The translations under genes were made by a program, and so were the position numbers. Of a DNA stretch of 38,842 nt, positions 21,485 through 34,241 are shown one piece after another. The notes below the pieces were generated by a model. The model did no database searches. It had not been told where the DNA came from and saw only the letters and a program-made list of their open reading frames with translations. Origin of the DNA: Phycisphaerae bacterium (GTDB lineage Bacteria > Planctomycetota > Phycisphaerae > Sedimentisphaerales > Anaerohalosphaeraceae); contig JAAYCR010000037.1 in assembly GCA_012729675.1 (NCBI GenBank), positions 1 through 38,842 on the forward strand. Reading direction: 5' to 3'. The number at the start of each line of letters is the position of its first letter. The first letter of the stretch is position 1.

Positions 21485-22996
21485 TCAATAGTCCTGCTCG
21501 GAGCTTCCAAAGATGACCCTGAAGGTGTTAAAATTGGGGACAATCGGGGCCATCGTCGGGCGGGGGCGAAAGGCCTGCGACCAATAGACCACCACGGCCT
21601 TACCCATCATATAATCGCGTGGGACAATACCCTTGCGGTAGCGCACGCCAAAATTACCAAGTCCCTCCATATCCCAAAGGCGGCTGTCGAGGCTGTTGGG
21701 GCTGTTGTCGCCGCAGACAAAAAACTCGTCATCCTCCAGCCGAAAAGGGCTGTTTTGTGTGGCCCGAATGCCGGGGTCTGTATAATGGATGTCGCGAAAC
21801 AGGCCAACATCGATGACGTCCAGACCACCGCCGCCGAAAAGTTGTACCTGCGGCGGCGTAACCTGTTCGCTTACACCGGCCAGGTCTTTATCATTGGCTA
21901 GGTCATACATGAACCGCTTTTGCCCCCACCGCAACACCAGTCGTCGATCCACATTGGCAAACTCAAAAGACTGGAACACGTCCGGCACAATGCCGTCGGT
22001 CAGGGTGCGTCGCAATTCCGTCCATCGCCCGTCCTGATATTTCAGAAAGCTAACCGCGCCGTGAAATTCGACCCTGACGCCATAGAGTATGCCGTATTTT
22101 TCCAGAACGGCTCCGACAAAACTCGCGTGGTCACGCCCTTTGACCTGGAACTGCAGCATCAGGTCACTGCACATCGGCATCGTCGAGAACGAACCGCTGT
22201 CGTTATAGCCATAGATGGAGCGAAACACATCGTGATGGCTGGGTTCATACACAAGGGTGTGTATCCTATTATCCGATTCATTCAGCCCGAAATGGGCGGG
22301 GTAATCGGCATCAAACATCCAGTAGGAGTCTTCTTCGTTGACAAATGGCTGCCGCCATTGGCGCTGTCGGCGTTGTCTTTGCGCTACTTCGGTCGGCTGC
22401 ATACCGGGAGACGGCTGATAGGTCTGACGATAAATCGGCATCCACAGCTCCTGCTGGACATTGAGGGGCTTTCGGACAATGCGACTGTCGATATAGATAT
22501 CGCCGTCGATGATCTGCACGGCCTCGCCGGGCAGGCCAATGAGCCGTTTGATGTAGTTGTCTTTCGGATTGATAGGGTTTTTGAAGACGACCACGTCCCA
22601 GCGGCGCGGCTCGAAGAACTGATAGATGCACTTGAGAACAAAGACGCGGTCGCCGTTGACCATCTGCCCGATGGACCGGCTCGGCTGCAATTGGCCGCAG
22701 AGGGGACACTGGGGCAGATCAATCGACAACGAGTCGGACCCCGTGTCAAAGACCCAGCCGCAATGCAGGCAGCGCATCCGGTAATGATCGCCGCGAAGCG
22801 TCTCGGCCATGCTGCCGGTGGGAATCTGAAAGGCCTGAATGGCGAACGCCTGAAACACCAGCGCCAGAATGAACGCCACCAGCAGCCAGTCCAGCAGCGT
22901 AACAACCCCCTCGACGGTACTATGAAACCGCCGCCGGAAACTGCCCAACGTCATCGGGCTTGGACGCTCTGTCAGGTCTTCGTGATCTTGTGTCAT
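21485..22996 (-). CDS. lepB: Signal peptidase I paralogue with zinc ribbon (LepB-1)
   Basis: Membrane serine/lysine protease that removes Sec signal peptides. After one membrane segment (about residues 33-57) comes the catalytic Ser box IPTGSMAETLRG (Ser62), then an inserted CxxC...CxxC zinc ribbon (Cys76, 79, 97, 100), then the Lys box NYIKRLIGLPGE (Lys150), and much later the GDNS/DSR box (FFVCGDNSPNSLDSRLW). At 503 residues it is about twice the usual length. The extra mass is the zinc ribbon plus a roughly 200-residue beta-rich insert before GDNS. ATG 22996 is preferred over TTG 23008 because of Shine-Dalgarno spacing. It lies directly downstream of a second paralogue. Confidence 0.9.
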   Translation of the reverse strand: MTQDHEDLTERPSPMTLGSFRRRFHSTVEGVVTLLDWLLVAFILALVFQAFAIQAFQIPTGSMAETLRGDHYRMRCLHCGWVFDTGSDSLSIDLPQCPLCGQLQPSRSIGQMVNGDRVFVLKCIYQFFEPRRWDVVVFKNPINPKDNYIKRLIGLPGEAVQIIDGDIYIDSRIVRKPLNVQQELWMPIYRQTYQPSPGMQPTEVAQRQRRQRQWRQPFVNEEDSYWMFDADYPAHFGLNESDNRIHTLVYEPSHHDVFRSIYGYNDSGSFSTMPMCSDLMLQFQVKGRDHASFVGAVLEKYGILYGVRVEFHGAVSFLKYQDGRWTELRRTLTDGIVPDVFQSFEFANVDRRLVLRWGQKRFMYDLANDKDLAGVSEQVTPPQVQLFGGGGLDVIDVGLFRDIHYTDPGIRATQNSPFRLEDDEFFVCGDNSPNSLDSRLWDMEGLGNFGVRYRKGIVPRDYMMGKAVVVYWSQAFRPRPTMAPIVPNFNTFRVIFGSSEQDY

Positions 22997-23070
22997 CGTT
23001 GCGCTCAACTCTTAATAAAGAAAAAGAAAACGGCGCCTTTAAAACGGCGGCAATGCCGCAAAACACGCCG

Positions 23071-23105: not shown

Positions 23106-24662
23106 TTATTTTCCGCCGTAGATAAACTTCATTCCGTCCGGGGCGGGGATCCAGCGGAGCGGTTCCTGTCCCAGTCGCCAGCCGCCCGGCCAGTGCACAA
23201 AAACGGCCTTGCCGACCAAGTATCCGCGCGGCACGATGCCGGGCGGGTATTCGAGGCCGTTGTTGCCGATGCCGGGGCCTCTCCACAGGCGGGAATCGCT
23301 GCTGGCGGGACTGTTGTCGCCGCAGGCAAAGAATTCATCCTTGCCCAAGGTCAGCGGCTCGGCCTCCGTCGCGCGATAGCCCTCAAGATAATGAATATCA
23401 CGGTACAGGCCGATATGGCGAAGCTGCACCACACCCCTGCCGGCCAGTTCGACGACCGGTTCGATATGCCGGTCCGTGCCGGCAGCATCCGGGGCCAGGC
23501 CGAGGTCATATGTGATTTGCGCATCGCCGTATTCGAGCCGCAGCAGATGATCTGCATTGGCAAAGCGAAACAGTTTGGCTCCGGCACCCACGTCCGCCAA
23601 CCCTTCGGCCAGGGTTTCGGCCGTCCCTTCGGGGCTGATGCGAAGTATCGCCGTTCGCCCGTCGGCATAGACCCAGCCCTCGTAAGCGATACCGTATTTG
23701 CCGAGGCGCACCCCAAATGCCGACTCGTCGCCGATTTGGGCGTAACACCGCACCATCAGATCGCTGCATACGGGTAGCTGTCCGTAATGAGCCGGGTCGT
23801 CATAGGCATACGTGGCTCGAAAACCATTGCCGACAGCGGTATTGTACCGTGCCCGGCTGACCGCCCCGCCCGCATCGTCCAGGGTAAAGACGAACGGCCC
23901 GTCGGCGGCCAGATCCCACGTGCCGCCGAGGCGATTTTCGAAGGGCTGCCGCCAAGAGTGCCCGTTGAAGCGTGTTTCGGCCGGCAGAACCGGCTGATAG
24001 TCGTTGTCATAGACGACCATCCATAATTCTTCCTGCACGGCATCGGGTTTTCGGGCGATTTGACCGTCAATATAAACATCCCCGTCGATGAGTTGTACCG
24101 TTTCGCCGGGCCTTGCAATCAACCGCTTGATATAATTGATTTGCGGCTCCTGCGGATTCTTGAAAACGATGACGTCCCACCGCTTTGGCTCGAAGAACTG
24201 GTAGATACATTTGAGGACGAATATCTGATCGCCCTTGAAAACCGTCTGCAGCTTTCCGGGCTGGACTTTGTCGCCGCGACTAATATACGGCTTGCCGCCG
24301 GATATCTGCACGGCAGGCTCCTGATAGCCGCAACTCGGACAGCGCGGCGGCGTCGGGGCAATCAGCACCTCGCGCGAAGGCGTTACATTCGGGGGGACGT
24401 TATAAAGCTCCTGATAGACATGCTGCAGGAAGTCGTAATCGTAGCGATAGCCGCACTGCTGACAGCGCATGCGGAAATGCGCCCCCCGCAGGGTCTCGGC
24501 CATACTGCCGGTCGGGATGCGATACACCTGCATCACAAAAAAGATAAACACCAGCGTCCCGGCAAAGGCCGTGATGAGCCATTCAAGGGTATGGTAAGCG
24601 CCGTCTATTTTTTTAGTGACGGCGGAATCGATTGGACTTTGATTGTCTTTTTTATAGTGCAA
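23106..24662 (-). CDS. lepB: Signal peptidase I paralogue with zinc ribbon (LepB-2)
   Basis: Second LepB of the tandem pair, 518 residues. The order is a membrane segment (about 25-47), the Ser box IPTGSMAETLRG (Ser53), CxxC (67, 70) and CPSC (108, 111) separated by about 37 residues, the Lys box INYIKRLIARPGE (Lys179), a long variable insert, and FFACGDNSPASSDSRLW near the C-terminus. Both catalytic residues are kept, so both paralogues should be active. Blocks shared with LepB-1, such as FVLKCIYQFFEP, show descent from one duplication. The start is TTG 24662, preceded by GGAA at about 8 nt. A strong promoter candidate lies upstream. Different substrate ranges for the two enzymes are inferred. 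Confidence 0.9.
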   Translation of the reverse strand: MHYKKDNQSPIDSAVTKKIDGAYHTLEWLITAFAGTLVFIFFVMQVYRIPTGSMAETLRGAHFRMRCQQCGYRYDYDFLQHVYQELYNVPPNVTPSREVLIAPTPPRCPSCGYQEPAVQISGGKPYISRGDKVQPGKLQTVFKGDQIFVLKCIYQFFEPKRWDVIVFKNPQEPQINYIKRLIARPGETVQLIDGDVYIDGQIARKPDAVQEELWMVVYDNDYQPVLPAETRFNGHSWRQPFENRLGGTWDLAADGPFVFTLDDAGGAVSRARYNTAVGNGFRATYAYDDPAHYGQLPVCSDLMVRCYAQIGDESAFGVRLGKYGIAYEGWVYADGRTAILRISPEGTAETLAEGLADVGAGAKLFRFANADHLLRLEYGDAQITYDLGLAPDAAGTDRHIEPVVELAGRGVVQLRHIGLYRDIHYLEGYRATEAEPLTLGKDEFFACGDNSPASSDSRLWRGPGIGNNGLEYPPGIVPRGYLVGKAVFVHWPGGWRLGQEPLRWIPAPDGMKFIYGGK

Positions 24663-24942: not shown

Positions 24943-25251
24943 ATGGCAACAATCACAAAGAAAGAACTCATTGATCGAATTGCCGATGCGACTCAGGCCA
25001 AGCGGGTAGTCGTCAAGCGGATTGTTCAGTCTTTTCTGGATGAGATCGTTTCCGAACTGGCCTCGGACAATCGCCTTGAATTCCGGGATTTCGGGGTCTT
25101 TGAGACCCGGAATCGAAACGCCCGCGTTGCACAGAACCCCAAGACACTCGAACGGGTCAAGGTGCCGTCCAAAAGAAGCGTCAAGTTCAAAATGGGCCGG
25201 ATGATGAAAGAAAAGCTTTCGACCGACTCAGCCGTCGCCAAACAGGCATAG
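24943..25251 (+). CDS. HU/IHF-family nucleoid protein
   Basis: The 102-residue product is a DNABII-family DNA-bending dimer protein. It opens MATITKKELIDRIADATQAK, has the dimerisation helices, the RLEFRDFGVFETR segment, and a beta-arm region containing ARVAQNPKTLERVKVPSKRSVKFKMG with the conserved Asn-Pro. The Ala/Lys-containing tail is slightly longer than in typical 90-residue HU. The ATG has AGAGG about 8 nt upstream. It is divergent from the lepB pair and is followed by the cold-shock gene after about 113 nt. HU versus IHF-like function cannot be decided from sequence. Confidence 0.93.
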   Translation: MATITKKELIDRIADATQAKRVVVKRIVQSFLDEIVSELASDNRLEFRDFGVFETRNRNARVAQNPKTLERVKVPSKRSVKFKMGRMMKEKLSTDSAVAKQA

Positions 25252-25577: not shown

Positions 25578-25710
25578 CTTTCGCCTCGGCGAAGAAGCAG
25601 CGTTTGAGGGCGGGTACTACTCAGCGCGCAGTGCCAATCATAATCTGACGTGCCGTGTGCACGATGACACGGTACAGGAGGGGCGTCGGCAACATTTTTT
25701 GGGAAGCCCA

Positions 25711-26346
25711 ATGCAGACTGCCCAGCTTCAACTTGGTTTGGAGTGTCGCGTGCTGGTGCTGAACAAGCACTATATGGCTCTCCGTGTCATCTGCGCCAAG
25801 CGGGCGTTTTCGCTGCTGTGCCGCGAGCAGGCGGAAGTCGTGGCCTGTGACGACGGGACGTTTGCCAACTACGACTTCCACATGTGGCGGCAGGTCAGCG
25901 AGGCCAAACACACCTTTGAGGCCCACAAATACGACTGGGTTTCGACGGTGCATTTCGCCATCGCCGTGCCGCGCGTCATCCGGCTGTTGTTTTACGACCG
26001 GCTGCCGCGTCAATCGGTCAAGTTCAATCGCCGCAATATTTTCGCCCGCGACGGCAACCGCTGCCAGTACTGCGGCAAAAAATTTCCCACCCCCGAATTG
26101 TCCCTGGATCACGTCGTGCCGCGAACACTCGGCGGCAAAAGCACCTGGACCAATATCGTCTGCGCCTGCACCGCCTGCAACGTGCGAAAAGGCGGCCGTA
26201 CCCCCGAACAGGCCCGCATGAAACTTATCCAAAAACCTGAAAAGCCCAAACGCAACCCTGTCATCGGCGTGCACCTGTCCGCCGACCGCTACCAAAGCTG
26301 GAAACAATTCCTCGACCACGCCTACTGGTCGGTCGAACTGACATAG
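25711..26346 (+). CDS. HNH endonuclease-domain protein
   Basis: The 211-residue product has a C-terminal HNH nuclease domain (about residues 110-165): a CQYCG zinc knuckle, SLDHVVPRTLGG with the catalytic His, NIVCACTACN with the second Cys pair, and a KGGRTPEQA end. The N-terminal half (VLVLNKHYMALRVICAKRAFSLLC and a WRQVSEAKHTFEAH stretch) is typical of this widespread chromosomal HNH family, whose substrate is unknown. ATG 25711 is chosen because GGGAAG precedes it; an upstream in-frame start at 25555 would overlap the cold-shock gene. It converges with nadD, 7 bp apart. A restriction role is not implied; there is no methylase nearby. Confidence 0.85.
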   Translation: MQTAQLQLGLECRVLVLNKHYMALRVICAKRAFSLLCREQAEVVACDDGTFANYDFHMWRQVSEAKHTFEAHKYDWVSTVHFAIAVPRVIRLLFYDRLPRQSVKFNRRNIFARDGNRCQYCGKKFPTPELSLDHVVPRTLGGKSTWTNIVCACTACNVRKGGRTPEQARMKLIQKPEKPKRNPVIGVHLSADRYQSWKQFLDHAYWSVELT

Positions 26347-26353
26347 GCGGCAA

Positions 26354-26983
26354 TTAGTGTGCTGTGCCGTAAAGGGCGTTTTGGCGGATATAGTCCTGAA
26401 CAGAGGCGGGGACAAGGGCTTCCACCGGCTTACCGGCGGCCAGACGCGACCGGACATCGGTGCTGCTGACGTCAATCAGCGGGGTCGGGAGCATGTCTTT
26501 TTCGAGTTGACGCACCCGTTCAGCGCCGAAAGCGAAGATAAGCTGCGTCAAATCCGGCCGCGGCAGGCCGCCCCGGTACATAATGCACAGACGGCACTGA
26601 CCGAGCAGCTCCTCAACGCGATACCACTGGGCTAAGTCGCCAATCACATCGGCCCCGACAAGCCAGAAAATCTCGGCCGCGCCACACGTCTGATCGCGAA
26701 ACTGAAAAACGGTGTCCAGTGTATAGCTCGGCGCGGCACGCTTCAACTCGCAGTCGCTAACGTCGAAGCCTTCGCGTCCCGCGATCGCTCGGCGAATCAT
26801 CGCCAGGCGCGCGGCGCCATCGGCGGTCGGAAGGTCGGTCTTGTGCGGGCTGCGCCGCGCCGGAATAAAGATCAGACGATCCGCGCCAAGATGATCGAAC
26901 GCATAAGACGCCACCGCCAGATGACCGTTGTGAATCGGATCAAACGAACCGCCGAACAGGATGATATTTTGTTTTGTTTGCAT
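26354..26983 (-). CDS. nadD: Nicotinate-mononucleotide adenylyltransferase
   Basis: NaMN adenylyltransferase of NAD synthesis, 209 residues, the usual length. The nucleotidyltransferase signature is GGSFDPIHNGHLAVA with the HxGH motif, and the C-terminal ISSTxxR-type motif reads DVSSTDVRSRLAAG. The RRSPHK segment that binds the substrate is also present. ATG 26983 with AGGG about 8 nt upstream is preferred over an in-frame start at 27019 that adds twelve atypical residues. It is monocistronic and convergent with the HNH gene. Confidence 0.95.
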   Translation of the reverse strand: MQTKQNIILFGGSFDPIHNGHLAVASYAFDHLGADRLIFIPARRSPHKTDLPTADGAARLAMIRRAIAGREGFDVSDCELKRAAPSYTLDTVFQFRDQTCGAAEIFWLVGADVIGDLAQWYRVEELLGQCRLCIMYRGGLPRPDLTQLIFAFGAERVRQLEKDMLPTPLIDVSSTDVRSRLAAGKPVEALVPASVQDYIRQNALYGTAH

Positions 26984-27343
26984 CGCTGCAACCCTTGAAA
27001 CCTGTTGAATTGTTACCAAAAATCAACTGCTGCCAATAAAAAAAATAAATAAAATCAAAAATTTTTTCAAGTTTTTTGTCGTTCATCCATCGCCCCGCTT
27101 CCGCCGGCATCTGAAGCATCAAGACGCTTTACATCACAGCTTAATCGGAACCGACGTCAATTGCAAAGAGTTAAATATTTTTAATTCAAATCGCCTTTCG
27201 ATGCGTTTTATGAAATCTGTCGTTAGCAATTCGTCACCCCTAAGCGAGTGCCGGCCAGCGCCGCGCGATGGCATAACCGACGACTTTATTGTCGCGGCAA
27301 ACTGTCGTAAGCGCCTTATAAGGAATAAATTTATGAAGAGTTA
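26984..27343. other. AT-rich intergenic region, no gene seen
   Basis: About 360 nt separate divergent nadD and the H1-like gene. I see only AT-rich sequence. There is no confident nadD promoter and no structured RNA that I recognise. Confidence 0.5.
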
Positions 27344-27372
27344 CTGAAAATTTGACGATAATCGTATATAAT
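27344..27372 (+). promoter_or_regulatory. Promoter of the lysine-rich gene
   Basis: CTGAAA, 17-nt spacer and consensus TATAAT (27367-27372), about 60 nt before the AGGAGGTGA ribosome-binding site. Together with the terminator it bounds a short transcript. Confidence 0.6.
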
Positions 27373-27443
27373 AAAATGAAAATAGGAATGAACCTATAAG
27401 AAATGTCACTTTAGACAATGGTTTGAAAGGAGGTGACAACGTT

Positions 27444-27569
27444 ATGGCAAAGAAAGCCGCAAAGAAAGCTACAAAGAAAGTTGCGAAGAAAAAAGTTGCA
27501 AAAAAGGCAGTAGCAAAGAAGGCAACAAAAAAGGTCGCGAAGAAAAAAGCTGCAAAGAAGAAAAAATAA
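27444..27569 (+). CDS. Histone H1-like lysine-rich 41-aa protein
   Basis: The 41-residue product consists only of Met, Lys, Ala, Val and Thr, built from repeating AKK/ATKK/VAKK units like the C-terminal tail of eukaryotic histone H1 and of bacterial H1-like proteins. About half of the residues are Lys. It should bind DNA or RNA non-specifically and may compact the nucleoid or act as a counter-ion. The evidence that it is a real gene is strong: a TATAAT promoter, a near-perfect AGGAGGTGA 7 nt before the ATG (27444), and an excellent terminator 21 nt after the stop. The T-rich complementary reading frame is an artefact of the repeats. Confidence 0.85.
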   Translation: MAKKAAKKATKKVAKKKVAKKAVAKKATKKVAKKKAAKKKK

Positions 27570-27590
27570 GACCTGACCGGTTGTCGAACA

Positions 27591-27630
27591 AAAGGAAGGT
27601 TTCCTGCCACGGCTAACCTTCCTTTTTTTT
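27591..27630 (+). terminator. Strong terminator of the H1-like gene
   Basis: AAAGGAAGGTT (27591-27601) pairs perfectly with AACCTTCCTTT (27615-27625) around a 13-nt loop, followed by more T residues to 27630. Confidence 0.92.
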
Positions 27631-27642
27631 GCGCCTGTTCCG

Positions 27643-27664
27643 AGCCGTTCGTCGGCTGTTTTTT
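27643..27664 (+). terminator. Second, back-up terminator
   Basis: AGCCG (27643-27647) pairs with CGGCT (27653-27657), then G and six T residues, directly after the first terminator. Confidence 0.6.
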
Positions 27665-28005: not shown

Positions 28006-29025
28006 ATGGCATCCGCTTATTACAAAATGCCGGAAGTAATGGACAAACTCGGCAAAAGTGAAAAGGACGTCCAGAACTTAATAAAACAAGGCAAACTGCG
28101 ACAATATATGGACGCGGGCAAGCCTGTTTTCAAGGTCGATGAGGTCGATACACTGGCCGAGCAAATCGTCGGCCTGGACCTGACGCAAGGCGGCAGCGAT
28201 CTGGGACTTGCCCTTGAGGAAACCGGCGAGATCACACTGGAACCCGATGAAGACAAACCCAAGTCCAAAGAAAGTGAAGGCGGCTTCGGGTTGAGCCAAA
28301 TGGGCGATTTGACCAGCGCCGACACCAACGTCGGAACAGTGGGCATCAATATCCTCAGCGGAACCGACGACGCCTACAAACTCACCGAAGACACCAAAGC
28401 CGAGACCCAGATCGGGGACATCGATGAAATTGAAAGTCTCGACGTCGATTCGAACCTTGAAAGTTTTGGCAGCGGTTCGGGGCTGTTGGATTTGTCCCTG
28501 CAGGCCGATGACACCTCGCTGGGCGCAGTATTGGATGACATTCTGCCCAGCGGCGCCGAAGCGGGTGAGGTCGGCGGCGCCGACTTGCCTTCCGAAGACC
28601 TCAAAATGGTCGATGAAGACGAAGGATTAGGAGGTGCCGAACGATCAACTCGCTCTGCGGTGGCAGGCGGTGCCGCAATGTCCGTCGGAGCCGGTGTGCC
28701 GGCCGGGACAGGAGTGCAAATGGTCCAGATCGTGCCCGCCGAGGACCCCGCCTCGACGCTGTATGGCCTCATGATGTTTCTGCCCGTCGCGGCGCTGGCA
28801 ATAGTAGCCATTATCGTAACCGCGGCCATTCAGGATGTCAGCCCCTCGCTGATGAAAGTGCTCACCGACAAAAAACTCGCCGATATCAGTATGATCTGGG
28901 TGGTCAGCGGCGGATTGGCGCTGCTGGTTTTGATCCTTTGGGCGATGACGGCCATGGGAGGTGAAAAAAAGGCCAAGCCGGCCAAGGCGGTCCGCGAGAA
29001 AAAGCCCAAAAAAAAGAAAAAATAG
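28006..29025 (+). CDS. Membrane-anchored protein with N-terminal HTH and acidic linker
   Basis: The 339-residue protein has a MerR/excisionase-like helix-turn-helix fold at residues about 5-55 (MPEVMDKLGKSEKDVQNLIKQGKL, then a wing with VFKVDEVD). A long Asp/Glu/Ser/Gly-rich disordered linker (about 60-245) includes SGLLDLSLQADDTSLG. Two membrane helices follow (about 252-276 and 296-317), then a Lys-rich tail (320-339, ending in KKPKKKKK). Predicted topology places both termini in the cytoplasm, so the HTH would be tethered to the membrane. Proteins of this layout seem common in planctomycetes (from memory). A role in linking DNA, or a protein partner, to the membrane is inferred; HTH domains of this type can also bind proteins. 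It has its own promoter. Confidence 0.7.
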   Translation: MASAYYKMPEVMDKLGKSEKDVQNLIKQGKLRQYMDAGKPVFKVDEVDTLAEQIVGLDLTQGGSDLGLALEETGEITLEPDEDKPKSKESEGGFGLSQMGDLTSADTNVGTVGINILSGTDDAYKLTEDTKAETQIGDIDEIESLDVDSNLESFGSGSGLLDLSLQADDTSLGAVLDDILPSGAEAGEVGGADLPSEDLKMVDEDEGLGGAERSTRSAVAGGAAMSVGAGVPAGTGVQMVQIVPAEDPASTLYGLMMFLPVAALAIVAIIVTAAIQDVSPSLMKVLTDKKLADISMIWVVSGGLALLVLILWAMTAMGGEKKAKPAKAVREKKPKKKKK

Positions 29026-33461: not shown

Positions 33462-34241
33462 ATGAAAGCTCCCCATATACAAATCGAACAGGTCTGGAAG
33501 GAGTTTTTTCAGACGCGATCAGAGTCCTGCCGCAATGCGCTGATGGTAAATTATCTTCAGAGCGTCAAATATACGGCCGAGAGGATATGGGTCAAGCTTC
33601 CGGACAAAGTTGACCTTGATGACCTCATTCAGGCAGGCATTTTTGGGTTGATGGACGCAATTGACGCCTTCGACCCCGAACGCGGCGTCAAATTTGAAAC
33701 GTATTGTGCGCCGCGCATTCGGGGCAGCATTCTGGATGAGCTGCGAAGCATGGACTGGGTGCCGCGACTGGTGAGGGCACGGGCGCATCAGCTTGATCGT
33801 GCGAGGGCGACGCTGGAGGCACAACTGGGCCGAATGCCGACGGAACAGGAACTGGCAACTGAAATGGAACTGGACAAAGTGGAGTTCCATCGGCTTCAAC
33901 GGGATGCCAGTGCCATCGGCCTCATTTCATTGAACAACAATTTTAATGACAACGACGGCGAAAAGGAGATTCGAGAAATCGACATTCTCGAAGATCAGCG
34001 AAGTCAAAACCCCGTTACCGAAGCCCAAAAGCGGGACTTGAAGAATCTGCTGAGCAAAGGCCTCACCCGTGCGGAAAAATTGATTCTTTTTCTATATTAT
34101 TATGAAGAAATGACGATGAAGGAGATCGGCGCAACGCTGGATTTGTCCGAGTCGCGGGTCTCGCAGATGCACTCGTCCATCATCGACCGCTTGAAATCTC
34201 AGATGAATTCTCGAAAAAAGGAGTTTGTGCTGTCGATGTAG
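33462..34241 (+). CDS. fliA: Flagellar sigma factor (sigma-28, FliA/WhiG type)
   Basis: The 259-residue product contains sigma regions 2 (VKYTAERIWVKLPDKVDLDDLIQAGIFGLMDAID, FETYCAPRIRGSILDELRSMDWVPRLVR), 3 (LEAQLGRMPTEQELATEM) and 4 (RAEKLILFLYYYEEMTMKEIGATLDLSESRVSQMHSS). The region 2-3 junction RSMDWVPR is diagnostic for sigma-28 proteins, which transcribe late flagellar and motility genes. The ATG has GGAGG 8 nt upstream. No flgM anti-sigma gene is visible nearby. It ends the merR-FlgB-like-flhG-fliA set. Confidence 0.92.
   Translation: MKAPHIQIEQVWKEFFQTRSESCRNALMVNYLQSVKYTAERIWVKLPDKVDLDDLIQAGIFGLMDAIDAFDPERGVKFETYCAPRIRGSILDELRSMDWVPRLVRARAHQLDRARATLEAQLGRMPTEQELATEMELDKVEFHRLQRDASAIGLISLNNNFNDNDGEKEIREIDILEDQRSQNPVTEAQKRDLKNLLSKGLTRAEKLILFLYYYEEMTMKEIGATLDLSESRVSQMHSSIIDRLKSQMNSRKKEFVLSM

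Follow-up and report, generated by a model that had tools for sequence, protein, structure and literature searches.

A minimal lysine-rich, histone H1 tail-like gene of planctomycetes with sigma-28-like promoter boxes

Can a protein of 41 amino acid residues, more than half of them lysine, be the product of a genuine gene, and, if so, what does it do and what controls it? The question is raised by an open reading frame (ORF) at positions 27444-27569 (plus strand, stop codon included) of a 38,842-nucleotide stretch of DNA from a Phycisphaerae bacterium; we call this whole stretch the window. The translation, MAKKAAKKATKKVAKKKVAKKAVAKKATKKVAKKKAAKKKK, contains 22 K, 12 A, 4 V, 2 T and 1 M and resembles the tail of histone H1, and we refer to the ORF as the mini-histone gene. 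The first-pass annotation had described a stand-alone H1-like gene whose protein consists of only Met, Lys, Ala, Val and Thr, about half of it Lys. The composition is borne out by the translated ORF (22/41 residues are K), and the gene itself is well supported by coding selection, a conserved ribosome-binding site, a promoter and a terminator of its own, single-copy occurrence and presence throughout the family. The mini-histone ORF is a genuine gene.

The gene, its conservation and its neighbours

Profile searches of Pfam and NCBIfam with the window protein matched no family, an Rfam search returned 0 families and a tRNA search returned none. A peptide search of the organism's own genome identified a single copy of the gene. 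Relatives were sought in a sample of 39 genomes from the window's family. Since a direct search with the 41-residue query protein produced matches in only 5/39 of them, synteny with nadD was used as an anchor. This divergent neighbour (26354-26986, minus strand; TIGR00482, 170.7 bits, cut-off 112.45; divergent cluster C0) is accompanied by a divergent K-rich ORF in 29 of 30 family loci; at the thirtieth (L225, genome G027) the contig begins 360 nt before nadD. Six more genomes were added by synteny (G017, G012, G005, G010, G009 and G007) and two by direct match (G036 and G038), giving 37. A counterpart, mostly divergent beside nadD, is therefore present in 37/37 testable family genomes, which is far above chance; the two genomes outside this count are G027 and G006, the latter having no nadD match.

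The ribosome-binding site, GAAAGGAGGTGA, lies at 27425-27436 on the plus strand, and AAAGGAGGTG is kept in 34/37 family members, with other sequences in G001, G007 and G009. It presumably matches the complement of the 16S 3' end almost perfectly, and translation would be initiated through this pairing. Placed 3-12 nt before an ATG, AAAGGAGGTG occurs at only four sites in the 2.8 Mb of the organism's own genome (0 in the backwards control), the other three of which open ORFs of 2, 46 and 79 amino acids. The near-perfect site reported in the first-pass annotation thus stands.

The codons point to selection on the protein. In a tally covering 25 of the 26 listed family loci (960 codons), K, A, V and T account for 944 codons; two codons are acidic, and F, W, Y, L, I, M and C are absent (0). 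AAR codons vastly outnumber AAY codons (587 vs 2) and the third bases of Ala codons are mixed (58 A, 62 C, 30 G and 65 T), a combination indicating that selection acts on the protein. The synonymous to nonsynonymous comparison had one comparable pair, with identical sequences. Repeat-length variants, which had been suggested as something to look for in relatives, do exist: the 34 complete family ORFs range from 23 to 133 amino acids. Selection keeps charge and composition, and length is nearly free.

Outside the family, a strict pattern joining the ribosome-binding site to MAKK matched in 49/161 genomes of the order, at one site each (backwards control 0/161). Across 84,980 named species it retrieved 91 stretches, which we counted by hand from their titles as 57 planctomycetes, nine Rokubacteria, seven Patescibacteria-type, five Omnitrophota, three archaea-labelled and ten others; four of the 91 (L118, L146, L159 and L174) are not K-rich ORFs. 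Rokubacterial ORFs are merely 11-12 amino acids long, with a second ORF of 13 amino acids in one locus. Because the neighbours are different in Rokubacteria and in the listed non-planctomycete lineages, these matches are no evidence of common descent with the window gene. In the Rokubacterial loci (L085, L089, L090, L094, L127, L137, L141, L151 and L173) the ribosome-binding site is shared by ORFs such as MAKKKATKKKKK, and several loci have a second tiny Lys-rich ORF upstream and a GGTGGGGGGTGGCGGCCTCCCACC-type hairpin downstream. A literature search on planctomycete H1-like or nucleoid proteins and on sigma-28/WhiG, covering titles and abstract openings of open-licence papers, found no description of the mini-histone gene.

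An HU gene is located at 24943-25251, 2.2 kb from the mini-histone gene, and the joint action with HU that had been proposed for the peptide is a matter of proximity alone. Other neighbours include a conserved HTH_17-like protein (28006-29025) with a membrane segment discerned by eye and no family above cut-off, found in 78/78 genomes searched, own included. On the minus strand, two long neighbouring ORFs (21485-23008 and 23106-24662) look by eye like signal peptidase I carrying a large insertion. An HNH protein (25702-26346) has an IscB/Cas9d-like HNH stretch, with scores of 52 and 48 bits, far under the cut-offs.

Transcription signals and a candidate sigma factor

The first-pass annotation credited the gene with its own promoter. 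A TATAAT is indeed present (27367-27372), as part of a sigma-70-like promoter, CTGAAA-17-TATAAT, at 27344-27372 on the plus strand; its -35 element (CTGAAA, 17-nt spacer) is weak, and the promoter scan, with three sites vs 1.6 expected, is by itself no proof. Two further elements had been overlooked: sigma-28-like boxes upstream of this TATAAT, and a FliA/WhiG gene 3' of the mini-histone gene. The boxes (27334-27361, plus strand) are TGAAG (27334-27338) and, after a 15-nt spacer, GACGATAA (27354-27361). They define what is new here, a putative two-box promoter, TNAAG-N16-G(A/T)CGATAA, before the mini-histone gene.

In the full tally, the motif TNAAG-N16-GNCGAT(A/G) lies upstream of the gene in 35/37 family members. 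Both boxes were found in 26/28 family upstream regions, vs 0.05 expected from shuffles (L217, with a variant ribosome-binding site, is outside these 28 and included among the 37), and in 21/24 other upstream regions, mostly from members of the order, vs 0.02 expected. The spacer is 16 in 46/47 regions and 15 in the window alone. As a control we used the upstream regions of another conserved gene, an HTH gene; of 30 loci fetched, 23 were listed and 18 used (the start was not found in five), and the two boxes occurred in 0/18.

Both boxes are those of sigma-28 (FliA/WhiG) promoters, a TNAAG -35 and a CGATA -10, and TNAAG and CGATAA boxes likewise precede the flagellin genes of the family. We surveyed 20 flagellin loci from 20 of the 32 flagellin-positive genomes and found TNAAG-N14-NYCGATA in 16/20 (0.22 expected), with a spacer of 14 in 16/16. 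The boxes of the mini-histone gene are the same as these, which stand 14 apart, and so are probably sigma-28 signals in the window's group. They differ from sigma-28 promoters in spacer length, which is 16 (15 for the window gene) where 14 is usual, and in having GWC in place of NYC. The longer spacer, and GWC vs the consensus GCC in the -10 box, leave room for a different sigma factor or paralogue, or for an operator.

A candidate regulator is encoded in the window itself: a FliA/WhiG-family sigma factor at 33462-34241 on the plus strand (TIGR02479, 259.9 bits, cut-off 189.6). The FliA/WhiG model has matches in 39/39 family genomes, 36 of them above cut-off, and a high-scoring copy (at least 251 bits) is present in 19/19 near-complete ones. 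Flagellin was found in 32/39 family genomes and not detected in 7/39, though draft assemblies could hide it. Four flagellin-negative genomes, G018 (99% complete), G020, G029 and G033, carry a full-length WhiG-like sigma factor, and all seven carry the mini-histone gene together with the two-box motif.

Searches for a wider regulon in the organism's own genome gave little. The two-box motif has 17 sites vs three in the backwards control, mostly within ORFs. Three are in AT-rich DNA close 5' of an ORF (the K-rich gene, an ORF that by eye is NiFe-hydrogenase-like, and one ORF without a name), and a further site lies 112 nt upstream of a flagellin match on contig C33. With most sites intragenic and too few near starts, no regulon is visible. 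A second candidate, TTGACGATAA-N5-TATAAT, was rejected with 22 sites vs 21 in the control.

The 3' end of the transcript is likely to be set by the gene's own intrinsic terminator (27590-27630, plus strand), which is strong (z = -3.1): its stem of 12 bp (27590-27601/27615-27626) runs into a T8 tract. It was unlisted in the pattern scan because its loop exceeds the permitted length. The strong tandem terminators claimed earlier are thus half confirmed, in that the second site (27643-27663, plus strand; 5-bp stem at 27643-27657) is weak and not above chance (two found vs 1.5 expected). The loop of the first holds GCCACGGC (27606-27613), which recurs 3' of the ORF in 18/34 family members with a complete ORF; its three occurrences in the window are no more than chance. 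In planctomycete loci L113, L115, L152 and L155 a 3' hairpin contains CCACGGC, and CCGTGGGCCGT lies beyond it; the two might pair as interacting loops or as a pseudoknot.

Likeness to known H1-like proteins

No histone fold is apparent in the window protein, which has no Pfam domain and consists of K, A, V and T residues after its Met. Its closest parallel is chlamydial Hc2, encoded by hctB, which shares the Lys/Ala/Val/Thr composition, the variation in repeat length and the likeness to an H1 tail; Hc2 length is reported to vary through Lys-rich repeats (PMC2848022). The mini-histone family likewise has Lys-rich repeats of Ala, Val and Thr whose copy number varies, with 23-133 amino acids against 165-237 in Hc2. 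The Pfam model PF07382 (HC2) did not match the window protein, and the best of five proteins tested, a 109-residue relative, scored 22.2 bits (cut-off 40). The parallel extends to the promoter, since hctB also has a sigma-28-type promoter with a TNAAG box and a CGATA -10. In C. pneumoniae, PMC3333780 describes it as the extended sigma-28 consensus TNAAG-N14-GCCGATA but with a 15-nt spacer, compared with 16 for mini-histone genes (15 in the window); ChIP in C. trachomatis placed sigma-28 at hctB and tsp only, according to PMC12282069.

Two other groups are similar in part. The Bordetella BpH1 and Burkholderia H1-like proteins (NF038053) also have Lys-rich repeats and variable length (PMC2848022); NF038053 did not match the window protein and gave 21.9 bits (cut-off 80) with the 109-residue relative. 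The KPAA C-terminal domain of Pseudomonas AlgP and PhaF is likewise a Lys-rich H1-like tail, predicted to be disordered in AlgP (PMC9239181). The AlgP tail is proline-rich and joined to an N-terminal domain, whereas the mini-histone protein corresponds to the tail alone.

Alternative readings and meaning

Could the ORF have no protein function at all? Low-complexity DNA and a structured 3' region might suggest a simple-sequence repeat or a piece of a non-coding RNA, but the codon-position pattern and the conservation of ribosome-binding site and start across genera make a spurious ORF scarcely credible. A Lys-rich leader peptide, belonging to an attenuator through which charged tRNA-Lys would be sensed and the following gene regulated, is more substantial and still very improbable. 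It draws on a group of relatives labelled f7, in which lysA (diaminopimelate decarboxylase, TIGR01048) follows 160-390 nt downstream, after a terminator, in 14/15 loci. In an alignment (A1) of 14 of the 15 f7 3' regions, bases directly after the stop codon pair with a distal strand; 97.6% of cells are paired, and this stem is kept through base changes. The terminator stem has both sides altered in 3/8 pairs. As the structure was chosen on the same sequences, the slid control flatters it. A lysine attenuator is thus a fair rival within f7, though not for the family of the window. There, the window included, lysA is not the gene that comes next; that gene varies between genera, while the upstream nadD is constant. 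ORFs reach 133 amino acids, and inspection by eye showed no antiterminator pairing that involves the ORF. With a changing downstream gene and no constant biosynthetic gene there, lysA attenuation was rejected as a general role.

The promoter and the target of the peptide each allow another interpretation as well. TNAAG-N16-GWCGATAA might belong to a sigma-70 promoter with a TATAAT -10, as its operator or upstream element, and not be a sigma-28 promoter. This is a serious contender, though we would bet against it: TATAAT stands about 5 nt 3' of the block in 26/37 family members, so that a sigma-70 promoter overlaps there, and the spacer exceeds that before flagellin by 2 nt. Against this, the block is kept without TATAAT at this position in most f7 members among those listed, both boxes agree with the sigma-28 consensus as well as with the flagellin promoters of the group itself, and the nearly invariant spacing is what recognition by a sigma factor demands. 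As to the target, the inference from lysine-richness to DNA binding is not specific, as such tails bind RNA and polyphosphate too. The composition would suit any polyanion, and the peptide might act mainly on RNA or ribosomes, or on polyphosphate granules, rather than in chromosome packing. Precedents are Hc2, which binds RNA and represses translation (PMC2848022), and AlgP, which sits at polyphosphate granules whose spacing needs its H1-like C-terminus (PMC9239181). This alternative seems rather unlikely to us, as AlgP has an N-terminal domain that the mini-histone protein lacks, and no ribosomal, RNA or polyphosphate gene is present among those neighbour clusters that were named.

The reading we prefer, with a probability of roughly 0.55, is a minimal H1 tail-like polycation that condenses nucleic acid and is strongly expressed, probably in a sigma-28-type programme. 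The protein would be a presumably disordered polycation, equivalent to a free histone H1 tail without any other domain, that neutralises nucleic acid and condenses it, with the chromosome as the likeliest target. Judging from composition, condensation of nucleic acid is likely, and the compaction of the nucleoid or action on RNA proposed in the first-pass annotation may be right; the high expression suggested there is probable. Transcription would probably be carried out by RNA polymerase with a FliA/WhiG-type sigma factor, an assignment supported by the box pattern and the local flagellin promoters and short of proof, and much of the family could also use the overlapping sigma-70-type TATAAT.

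Planctomycetes and chlamydiae are usually grouped in one superphylum, and to our knowledge chlamydiae are without flagella. The likeness to hctB may reflect shared ancestry or convergence. A bolder proposal, which we consider unlikely, is that sigma-28-family control of an H1 tail-like condenser is an old link common to Planctomycetota and Chlamydiota; in Sedimentisphaerales-type planctomycetes a dedicated WhiG-like sigma factor, kept without flagellin, would drive the mini-histone gene from its own 16-nt-spacer promoter, so that the genome becomes compacted in cells that disperse or rest.

An H1 tail cut down to as few as 23 residues and retained family-wide would offer a minimal selected polycation that is directly testable. 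Its promoter would connect it with a sigma factor of the type that serves chlamydial hctB, so that the question why flagella-less chlamydiae retain sigma-28 may be approached by comparison with free-living relatives.
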